A DNA stretch of 32,288 nucleotides from positions 1 to 32,288 of IMG/VR virus record IMGVR_UViG_3300027985_000435; one strand, written 5' to 3'. The position numbers were made by a program, and so were the translations under genes. Under the pieces are notes generated by a model. It had not been told where the DNA came from, ran no database searches, and saw only the letters and a program-made list of their open reading frames with translations. The stretch comes from a virus. Of this stretch, positions 1 to 3,286 are shown piece after piece (position 1 is the first letter of the stretch; each line of letters starts with the position of its first letter).

Positions 1-831
1 ATTTAAATATTGAGTATAAGTTTCCAATACATGATTTGGTACACGGACATCATTATTGTATTTTTCTGAAATCTTCTTATAACCTCTAGGACCTTTTAAC
101 TTATTAAGATCTGATTGTATTTCATTTAAATAACGATTGCTTGTATTTTTAATCACTATGTTTGATGTTTCTTGGATACGTTTTAGTGACTTAATATTTA
201 AATAAGCTTCCTTAATACGTGTCCCGACTCTGTCAAACCATGTTCCATTTTCGTTAATATGCCGAGTCATTGCTTTAGCTGATAAAACGTGTTTGTTAGG
301 AAACAAATATCGTTCTCCATCACAATTCTCAATGAAAATCTTATTAATATTTCTAGCTCTAGCTCCTCGAATTTCAGGATCTATAGGCTTTGAATGGATA
401 ATTATCATTTTTGAATTTGGTAGAGTGTAATATGACTTATTCGTATTTCCAGTAAAACCTTCAGTTAATGAATTTTCTTCATTATAGCGTTTAATAATTT
501 TACTAAATTGTTTAGGTGTATTGTCCTTGGTGAAGTCATTTATAGTTAAACCAATACCAAATTGATTAGCAGATTGTTTTACTCTCTGTAATAATTGCCC
601 TAATGTATTATCCATTTCACCTTGCGTTTTCCAAAAATACATTTCCGGTCTATCTTTATCTTCAATGTTTGGCAATTGAATCATAAAATTAACTGGTTTA
701 ATATATATCCACTTCGCAGTTAATGGTGTGCTAGTTCCGTTACCGGAATCATCATACATGCTAAGAGTATACCCATACTCTTTTGCTGCTAGAATTTTAT
801 ATAATTCTAATCCTAACTTGTTTGAATTCAT
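1..831 (-). CDS. Conserved hypothetical phage protein, C-terminus beyond window
   Basis: The frame is open from an ATG at 831 to the window edge, giving about 276 residues with no stop, so the gene is partial at its 3' end. It starts inside the terminase gene: its ATG overlaps the terL stop as ATGA, and a strong GGAGG lies six bases upstream within terL, so the two are probably translationally coupled. The middle contains [18 protein letters not shown] followed by [14 protein letters not shown] and a basic stretch. I recall similar 'PEIRG-R-RN-IFIEN--GER' segments in uncharacterised proteins of marine phages, but I cannot assign a function. No membrane segment or signal peptide is visible. 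Its position after terL suggests a late virion or packaging role, which is inference. Confidence 0.75.
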
Positions 832-2552
832 TGCGTTCCTCCGGTAAATGTAATAACTGGTAACGGTTTTCTAAAATCATCGTCCAATGTTTCTTTAACT
901 CTATCTTGTAAGTTTTCTTCAAATTTTGATATAGTTTGTATCATTCTAGTTATTAACAACAACGCTGATACTAAATCGTCGTGACATCCCGTTTTTGCTT
1001 CGTAGCGTGTGCTTTCTTGATCAAGTGCAATAAAAGTGGTTAGTTCTTCATGTAAAGCTTCACTTGCAATTTCTAATTTTCGTTGTTCAACTAATCGTTT
1101 TAAAGCGAAACATGCAGTTTTCTTAGTTTGCCTAGTTGTGGTAAATCCTTTTCTAACTCTACCAGTTCTTGAACGTCTAGGTTCACACATAAGAAATCCA
1201 GGAAAGTTGTCAAGACCCATTTGTGTTACCATTAGCACCACTGCTTCACCGATTGTGTTATTTTCAAATGACCAGTATAATGTAGGATCAGGATCACCAA
1301 GTTTACGTAGTTCTAAGTCGATCATTCTAAGTAATCGATTAACTAAGCGTACTTGGTCTGGAATATCAGTTAGATTATCTTGCCACTCAGCAATTTGACG
1401 TAATGTCTGAACTTCATATATTTGTATTGCTGCGCTATCCCCACCAGTACCACTAGCAGGATCAAGAGCAATCATATAAGCTAAACCAGGTCTCAATTTA
1501 TTGTACCATCTTATTTTTCCAGTATTACCAACAAACGAGCGCACCGAGTTTTTCTTTAATGTACTTAGAACGATAGGATCAATTAAAGTTTCTTGGAATG
1601 TTATAAATTCACAGTTATATTCACGTCTAAACGCTGAATCTCCTGATTTACGTCTTTCTTCCTCAGCCCAAGCCTCATCTCTTTTTGGGTGACAGTCCCA
1701 TCTATATATGAGACCTCTAAATCCATTTTCACCTACGCCGTTAGGGTAAGGAAACCCATGTTGATCTAGAGTTCGTTGTGATCCTGCCCAAAGCTTACCA
1801 AACTTATCAGTTTCAGTATTTGGTGTACTAGTAATTATGCATTTTCCACCAGTACTTGCTAAAGTTGGCATTACCGCAGTCCAGAATTCATCCTGTATTC
1901 TTGGCTCAACGAATGCAAACTCGTCAAGATATAGTAAGTTTACAGATAAACCACGAGCTGCTGATGATGTAGTCGCTCTTGAAATAATTCTTGATTTATT
2001 TTCAAATTTAATTTCAGTTTTATTATATTCAATAACACCATCTCTAATATAATCAGGACACTCTTCATAAGCGTATCTAATACGGCTCATAATCTCCATA
2101 CTAGCAGCATGATTATTAGAAAGTAATACAACAACTTGATCAGGATTAAACATTGCAAACCACAAAATATAAGCTGCTGCTACGGTGGTATTATGTGAGA
2201 GGATCCCATTAGTATAATAACGGTGATTATCCGAATTAACTGATAAATCGTACATTACTTCTTCATAATTTAAATTTTGAACAGATTTAACCTGGACAGG
2301 TCCAGATTCAGTTAAAATAAAATCCTGAGGTGTTAAATCTTTAACAAATATTTCAGTATAATCCGATAAAAATACAATATGATTATCAGCACATTTAAGA
2401 GATAACCCATTCTGCAATTTTAATTCATAAACAACATACGGAATAGTAACATTAAGACTTGAAATATCCTCCCAACCAGTATCAGTTTCTATTTCCCAAT
2501 CTTCTATATCAATTACTTCAGTGAATTTTCGTTCGACTGTATTTGATAGCAT
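828..2552 (-). CDS. terL: Terminase large subunit, C-terminal fragment with C-intein (gp17-like)
   Basis: This 574-residue product is the second half of a split terminase. Residues 1-121 are a long C-intein ending YTNGILSHN (penultimate His, terminal Asn). Residue 122 (Thr) starts the C-extein with TTVAAAY, which completes the Walker A motif begun by GRQLGK in the upstream ORF. The ATPase Walker [10 protein letters not shown] and motif [10 protein letters not shown] follow. Then comes the RNase H-like nuclease domain, with [13 protein letters not shown] and a late [10 protein letters not shown]. The enzyme would pump DNA into proheads and cut concatemers. I chose the ATG at 2552 because AAAGGAG lies just upstream; a longer open frame to 2579 lacks such a site. 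The start and its SD lie inside the endonuclease ORF. The stop (TGA) overlaps the next gene's ATG. Confidence 0.93.
2190..2552 (-). other. C-terminal half of the TerL split intein (121 residues)
   Basis: The segment before the extein TTVAAAY carries Hint-fold features. A block-B-like stretch reads [11 protein letters not shown], with a His in the usual place but Cys where Thr is common. Block F reads [18 protein letters not shown], and the end is SHN followed by Thr +1. At 121 residues it is far longer than the roughly 35-40 residue C-inteins of canonical split inteins, because the split lies just after block A. Residues needed for trans-splicing (Cys1 in the partner, block B His, His-Asn, Thr+1) are all present. 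Confidence 0.88.
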
Positions 2553-2863
2553 AAATTCTCCTTTATAAAAGATAGACATTTTTGTATAGCCATATCCCTA
2601 TTTGTATTGTATTCTTTCTCCCAGATAACAAGAATTTTAAAACCATTCTCAGTAGCATAATCTGATTTTAGTTTATCTTCTATCCATTTTTCTGAGGCTG
2701 GTTTCCCAGTTACTTTATTAACGTCTCCATCTTTAAACATAGAAGGATTCATATGCCAAAAATCACCGTGAAATTCGATTAATACATTACCAATTCGAAT
2801 ATCATATACAAAACCTCTAGGAGTTGATTTTACTTTTGCTCTTGATATCACAAAATAATACAA
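2513..2863 (-). CDS. Vsr-like homing endonuclease, N-terminally truncated, inside split terL
   Basis: The 116-residue frame holds the core of the Vsr-like (EDxHD, I-Bth0305I-type) nuclease family: FVYDIRIGN with the catalytic Asp, then [13 protein letters not shown] with the catalytic His, and a C-terminal [11 protein letters not shown] strand. This family is known as free-standing homing endonucleases between the halves of split-intein genes. The first catalytic Glu and its helix are missing: the frame begins with TTG only about 17 residues before the Asp strand. A strong AAAGGAG instead precedes an ATG at 2871 in another frame that stops after seven codons. The gene therefore looks decayed or frameshifted at its 5' end. 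Its 3' end overlaps the start of the terL C-fragment by 40 bases and supplies that gene's SD. Confidence 0.72.
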
Positions 2864-2947
2864 TTAATCATAAAGACTCCTTTATAGCTGATTTAAATTA
2901 GTAAGCAATAAAAATATACAATAAAAGAATCTATTTGTTATCTATAT

Positions 2948-3286
2948 CTATTTTTTACTAGCTAGTTTCCTGAACTCTTCAATTGTTATTTTTTTAACTT
3001 CACCTGTGTATTTATTACGAATGCTTACCAAGCTGTCACCCAAAAAACACTTACCTAGTTGGCGGCCGCAAAGAGCAATTACGTTTTTATTATCATTAAA
3101 GCCTTGAATCATTTCTTCTTGATAATAATATGGCTCAAATAGTTTTGCTCCACCTTCAGTTTGAATTTTTACAAAATTTTTCATGAAATAAATAGGATCA
3201 TTTGTGCATTTCTTCAGTTCTGATAACATAGCAGGTGTATATAGAACTTGAACATTAGGGTCCTTAAATGGTTTATAAATTGCCAT
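2948..3286 (-). CDS. terL: Terminase large subunit, N-terminal fragment with N-intein
   Basis: The 112-residue product has 79 residues of terminase N-terminus, including the YYQEEMI (adenine-binding Q) region, ending in the first part of Walker A, GRQLGK. The N-intein then begins at Cys80 (CFLGDSLVS) and the ORF stops after LASKK. The rest of the intein and terminase are in the ORF starting at 2552, so a functional terminase requires trans-splicing. The SD is AAGGAGATAAAAATG. A tandem 67-bp duplication immediately upstream repeats this start region and creates a leader ORF. A single-base frameshift cannot explain the break, because the two halves are 395 bases apart with another ORF between them. 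Confidence 0.92.
   Translation of the reverse strand: MAIYKPFKDPNVQVLYTPAMLSELKKCTNDPIYFMKNFVKIQTEGGAKLFEPYYYQEEMIQGFNDNKNVIALCGRQLGKCFLGDSLVSIRNKYTGEVKKITIEEFRKLASKK
2951..3049 (-). other. N-terminal half of the TerL split intein (33 residues)
   Basis: It starts with Cys1 in CFLGDSLVS (block A), then has a GEVKKITIEEF strand-helix typical of the first intein hairpin, and ends at a stop 33 residues later. Block B (usually within the N-half of split inteins) is carried by the C-half instead. This resembles the atypically split TerL inteins such as AceL-TerL, which also interrupt the terminase Walker A site. Confidence 0.88.

Follow-up and report, generated by a model that had tools for sequence, protein, structure and literature searches.

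The large terminase subunit gene (terL) of this phage is broken in two inside the Walker A motif, and obligatory trans-splicing of the two products is very likely. We hold with high confidence the whole explanation, in which the TerL halves are rejoined by split-intein trans-splicing and the intein is a former mobile element whose nuclease has decayed. The window, i.e., the whole stretch of DNA that was analysed, is a complete viral-contig record of 32,288 bases; it probably covers only part of a larger genome, which could hold an intact terL elsewhere.

Organization of the split terL locus

TerL is encoded by two open reading frames on the minus strand (Table 1). The first of them (2948-3286) ends with CGRQLGK/CFLGDSLVSIRNKYTGEVKKITIEEFRKLASKK-stop, where the slash marks the break and the intein part runs CFLGDS...LASKK-stop. 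The second (828-2579) encodes the C-terminal part of an intein ending with SHN, followed by TTVAAAY and the remaining TerL. Translation of the second frame probably begins at ATG 2552, which is immediately preceded by AAAGGAG (Shine-Dalgarno sequence at 2558-2564), and each of the two starts, 3286 and 2552, possesses its own strong Shine-Dalgarno sequence. The first-pass annotation had placed the break inside Walker A and quoted the flanking residues; these are present in both frames, and the exact form of the motif is GRQLGKTT, cut between Lys and Thr.

Table 1. Features of the split terL and PolB loci in the window.
Feature	Coordinates	Strand	Evidence or remark
TerL N-extein, 79 aa; ends with CGRQLGK, the first part of Walker A	3050..3286	-	phrog_5989 and phrog_36964 matches; identity to Vibrio phage 2.275.O TerL
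TerL IntN, 33 aa; Cys1, block A, N2-like KKITIEEF, then TAG stop	2948..3049	-	Sequence; homologous fragments elsewhere
TerL IntC, 121 aa; block B CADNH, block F, block G TNGILSHN	2190..2552	-	TIGR01443, PF14890, AlphaFold model
TerL C-extein, 453 aa; Thr+1 of Walker A, remaining ATPase, RNase H-like nuclease domain	828..2189	-	phrog_36964, 3ezk/3cpe, PF03237
Vsr-type (EDxHD) homing endonuclease remnant; C-terminal nuclease part only	2513..2863	-	TTG start in a poor position; overlap with the beginning of IntC
ATG with a good Shine-Dalgarno sequence (2877-2883); dead 7-codon frame MINCIIL-stop	2848..2871	-	Reading frame differs from that of the nuclease remnant
Near-perfect 67-bp tandem duplication (one mismatch); TerL start codon, Shine-Dalgarno sequence and first 16 codons	3239..3372	-	
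PolB IntN, 124 aa; Ser1, TxxH block B present	19580..19951	-	End of the PolB-N ORF (19577-21955)
PolB IntC, 123 aa; ends with ILLHN, then Thr+1 of YGDTDS	18197..18565	-	
PolB homing endonuclease gene with in-frame TGA (18687-18689)	18687..19523	-	phrog_22677, E 7.8e-32; read-through alignment

Both exteins were recognized as parts of a terminase large subunit. The N-extein matches phrog_5989 (E 8.5e-19) and phrog_36964 (E 6.7e-18) and is 49% identical to residues 1-79 of the intact TerL from Vibrio phage 2.275.O, and the C-extein matches phrog_36964 (E 3e-169), the T4 gp17 structures 3ezk/3cpe (E 7e-34) and PF03237. The closest TerL proteins belong to RaK2-like and other jumbo phages, including Vibrio phage 2.275.O and the Escherichia 121Q group (57% each). 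At the terL start, the upstream copy of the 67-bp duplication forms a short dead ORF, which would be expected to compete for ribosomes.

Evidence for an intein at the break

The IntC region scores 22.5 bits against the intein C-terminus model TIGR01443 (NCBIfam cut-off 15.6) and matches PF14890 with E 6e-8, slightly under the Pfam cut-off. The residues of a class 1 intein are all present, namely Cys1, the block B His in CADNH, SHN and Thr+1. Across eight IntC sequences CAD-H and SHN are invariant, and NH, YYTN and LSHN are common to them. The Thr of block B (TxxH), which is common but not essential in inteins, is absent from the IntC of the window, where Ala takes its place. Since this Ala is invariant in the eight relatives and VidaL likewise has CAFNH, it is characteristic of the family and does not represent a loss. 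In the AlphaFold model (pLDDT 89), IntC is predicted to fold as a HINT domain: the best fold match is VidaL (E 1.6e-7), followed by Cat (E 3e-6), and every one of the top PDB matches listed is an intein or an intein-like HINT domain. Profile searches with IntN, which at 33 aa is too short for them, gave no significant match of its own; this candidate half was assigned by its position, its Cys1 and its recurrence in other genomes. The layout of a 33-aa IntN and a 121-aa IntC on separate ORFs is that of an atypical naturally split intein.

The insertion point was defined by an alignment of loci fetched with TerL-C, nearly all of which have an unbroken RQxGK; the exception is a 229-kb viral contig (L064), in which TerL carries insertions at two sites, K/S in Walker A and a later one preceding CEF. 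Relatives free of the intein, whose TerL-C identity is mostly 43-57%, read uninterrupted over RQxGK/T (K/S in a few), and the break therefore falls exactly at the Walker A Lys/Thr. Ligation would restore GRQLGKTT with nothing gained or lost. Thus, the host enzyme is continuous in relatives without the element. The first-pass annotation had proposed a trans-splicing split intein at Walker A, with the starting Cys and the terminal SHN and Thr+1 abutting the break; the motifs, the IntC score above the NCBIfam cut-off, the empty-site alignment, the fold and the recurrence of the same break all argue for this proposal.

Proposed mechanism of TerL assembly

From established intein chemistry we infer the following order of events. 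TerL would be made as two proteins, of 112 aa (N-extein plus the 33-aa IntN) and 574 aa (121-aa IntC plus C-extein), and the short IntN would dock on the large IntC to give a complete HINT fold, in the manner of atypical naturally split inteins. Cys1 would attack the Lys-Cys peptide bond (N-S acyl shift), the chain would be transferred to Thr+1, and the Asn would cyclize, leaving Lys and Thr joined in an uninterrupted Walker A motif, GRQLGKTT, within the predicted junction peptide GRQLGKTTVAAAY. DNA packaging, like ATP binding, would require the ligated TerL. In the past the intein would have been mobile, its halves flanking a homing endonuclease gene of the Vsr type; this gene would later have decayed, and the split intein presumably could not be dropped without loss of TerL.

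Alternatively, the TerL halves could function without covalent ligation, as a non-covalent assembly held together by the intein halves. Phage genes that work in pieces without splicing are known, such as NrdA, which is split by a mobE insertion in a T4-type phage. However, the terL break lies inside the P-loop, where Lys and Thr must adjoin, and a non-covalent assembly would not require the splice-junction residues Cys1, His, Asn and Thr+1 to be kept. We regard this alternative as extremely unlikely and favour covalent trans-splicing.

Recurrence of the split in other phages

Using IntC and TerL-N as queries, we found the same split at the same K/T residue in six other viral contigs (L075, L076, L077, L078, L079 and L115), of which L075, L076, L078 and L079 are close relatives and were counted as one lineage. 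The split loci follow the pattern RQxGK/C plus 30-40 aa and a stop, with a separate ORF containing ...SHN/T. The nearest split relatives (the L075 type) are uncultured, as is the window phage.

Similar arrangements were identified in three cultured phages. Delftia phage PhiW-14 reads RQMGK/C...stop-stop and then ...ASHN/TTT, with its halves separated by stops only and no nuclease. In the complete genome of the cultured Salicola phage SCTP-2, gene 534 (429 kb) ends with LARQLGK/CVDYET..., gene 267 (256 kb) reads ...LSHN/TAVAALYLLWYAMF followed by a second IntN, and gene 224 (216 kb) encodes the remaining TerL with a further intein in cis. The K/T halves of SCTP-2 are 173 kb apart, and its TerL (L138, L151 and L152) occupies three genes scattered over 213 kb; as read from these genes, it apparently needs two rounds of trans-splicing and one of cis-splicing. 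Campylobacter phage F379 has RQ/C...stop, a nuclease gene and SHN/SSKSTT, i.e., a split three residues upstream of K/T (the Q/S site), and its nuclease is of a different type, with a weak T5orf172 match. When the whole genomes of F379, PhiW-14 and SCTP-2 were searched, no further intact TerL emerged, and therefore the split gene must work in these cultured phages.

These genomes bear on two further alternatives. A terL pseudogene or a misassembly, in which the break would be damage and packaging would proceed via another terminase copy, fits the decayed nuclease ORF, the 67-bp duplication at the terL start and the incompleteness of the window genome. Nevertheless, the frames of both TerL parts are fully open, the catalytic intein residues are conserved, each part has a ribosome-binding site of its own, and the identical break is found in other contigs and in complete cultured-phage genomes, which makes this reading very unlikely. 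An assembly artefact as such was rejected, given that the split recurs in other contigs and isolates. Joining of the halves at the RNA level, by intron splicing or ribosomal bypass, has a parallel in Campylobacter phage IBB_35, for which both an intein and an intron have been described within the TerL gene (PMC3322345). We find it scarcely credible here: Rfam gave no group I or group II intron or other match, whether at gathering score across the window or, in the region of the break, with E up to 1, and the intein residues abut the break on both sides. Nor does RNA-level repair suit halves that are separated by stops only, as in PhiW-14, or that lie as far apart as in SCTP-2. Protein trans-splicing accordingly remains the preferred reading.

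Contiguous forms of the intein exist as well. Among the Ackermannviridae, Salmonella phage dinky, Vibrio phage BX-1 and phage Kuja carry a contiguous homologous intein at K/T (RQSGK/C...SHN/TTV). In an intein tree, built to see whether the split forms have a single origin, these alternate with contiguous ones on weakly supported branches. L080, L083 and L084 also hold inteins, 48-56% identical to the TerL IntC, which precede SIFL... in an apparent DnaB/gp41-type helicase. By this similarity, members of one intein family seem to sit in the P-loops of unrelated enzymes. A different kind of partial gene was noted in Xanthomonas phage XaC1 (L074, 3839-4558), in which a diverged partial terL (~30% identity) with RQAGT as Walker A stands directly before an intact terL.

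Decay of the nuclease gene at the TerL site

The first-pass annotation had described a free-standing Vsr-like endonuclease between the TerL halves. Its Vsr-like character is upheld by TIGR00632 and by the fold of its L077 relative, but the ORF is a truncated C-terminal remnant, not an intact gene. It aligns with positions 260-351 of 353 of phrog_22677 (E 1e-16) and positions 38-119 of 119 of TIGR00632 (Vsr; E 2.6e-5, well below the whole-protein cut-off of this model), and it lacks the N-terminal ~250 residues as well as the SKxE helix with the catalytic glutamate that is present in L077. Judging from these missing parts, the ORF does not encode a functional homing endonuclease, and the TerL element can probably no longer move by itself. 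A search of viral contigs with the remnant confirmed no relatives.

The TerL-site loci form a decay series. Intact nuclease frames of 338-340 codons, overlapping the ends of both intein halves, are found in L075 and L077; the window retains the C-terminal piece; and L115 has only a stop-containing vestige within ~134 bp. The best match of the L077 nuclease domain model is Vsr (1cw0; E 0.018, prob 1.00), followed by I-Bth0305I (prob 0.99), both with modest E-values. Relatives thus illustrate stages of nuclease loss, from an intact gene through a C-terminal piece and a vestige to stops only and, finally, to halves 173 kb apart. These stages support the notion that a split intein outlives its nuclease because the host protein cannot be made without the intein.

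A second split intein in PolB

The window carries another split intein in PolB. Its IntN scores 34.9 bits with TIGR01445 (cut-off 24.5) and its IntC 16.1 bits with TIGR01443 (cut-off 15.6), and the intein matches the Aes123 PolB1 split intein (9hth; E 5.8e-13). The insertion site is YGD/TDS, and Vibrio phage 2.275.O has a contiguous YGDTDS there. The nuclease gene at this site looks dead from its reading frame: the in-frame TGA stands at a Trp of the intact relative from Klebsiella phage KP13-7 (AKHK-stop-ALDR vs AKQKWHLDK), and the GD[FY]WH motif (GDYWH) is altered to RDYWH. Reading TGA as Trp to rescue this nuclease was rejected, as TGA ends 5 of the 36 tabulated ORFs, including TerL-C.

The presence of split inteins in both TerL and PolB of one molecule had initially been considered unusual. 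This view was not supported: in F379 TerL and PolB are likewise both split (PolB at a slightly different residue), so that the pair is not peculiar to the window, a split PolB with an endonuclease has been published for the related jumbo phage MIJ3 (PMC6892783), and SCTP-2 has its TerL in three genes. A more far-reaching scenario would be that the mobile phase is over and the split is fixed, with both nucleases dead and the phage dependent on two protein ligations, one for its packaging motor and one for its polymerase, the rate of which could time packaging, and with SCTP-2 as the end state; we consider it unlikely.

Other genes of the window

Between 7930 and 16478, Pfam identified QueD (PTPS), FolE (GTP cyclohydrolase I), QueC and QueF, i.e., queuosine-type 7-deazaguanine genes, and a QueE-like ORF was observed at 10651-11547. 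A 424-aa ORF (15204-16478) has no Pfam or PHROG match; judged by eye, it has the look of a tRNA-guanine transglycosylase or DpdA-type protein. This gene content suggests a modified guanine in the phage DNA.

Comparison with known systems

The TerL split is another case of the documented 'fractured gene' class, which Dassa et al. in 2009 reportedly described for conserved phage enzymes interrupted by a split intein and with a Vsr-type endonuclease gene between the halves. The window shares the broken phage enzyme and the split intein, whereas its endonuclease is a C-terminal remnant. It adds a natural atypical split intein with a 33-aa IntN, Cys1 and Thr+1 and a P-loop site, of a type that is useful for protein labelling.

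The atypical split inteins AceL-TerL, GOS-TerL and the consensus Cat have IntN parts of 25, 37 and 30 aa, respectively, and the Cat IntC has 104 aa (PMC11766414). The window intein resembles them in its short IntN, its large IntC and its TerL host gene. However, the +1 residue is Cys in GOS-TerL and Thr in the window, and Cys+1 TerL inteins such as those of L064 and Vibrio phage Va1 are located at the later /CEF or /CNF site, unlike the Walker A K/T site of the window. We infer that the insertion site of AceL-TerL and GOS-TerL differs from that of the window; AceL-TerL, suggested as a comparison by the first-pass annotation, would thus be an intein of the same type with a short N-part, but at a different TerL site. 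Among solved inteins, VidaL (PDB 6vgv) is the best sequence match (E 1.6e-6 with both halves) as well as the best fold match; its block B is alike (CAFNH vs CADNH), and the identity is ~30% in the aligned part.

At the same K/T point, the Ackermannviridae inteins lie in one open frame and are spliced in cis there, in contrast to the split intein of the window. The split PolB inteins of MIJ3 and Aeromonas phage Aes123 are relatives of the window PolB intein, where the endonuclease gene has a premature TGA. Finally, PhiW-14 and SCTP-2 (K/T) and F379 (Q/S) resemble the window in having a split intein in or beside Walker A, and differ from it in that PhiW-14 is free of a nuclease, the SCTP-2 halves are unlinked and F379 carries another nuclease type.
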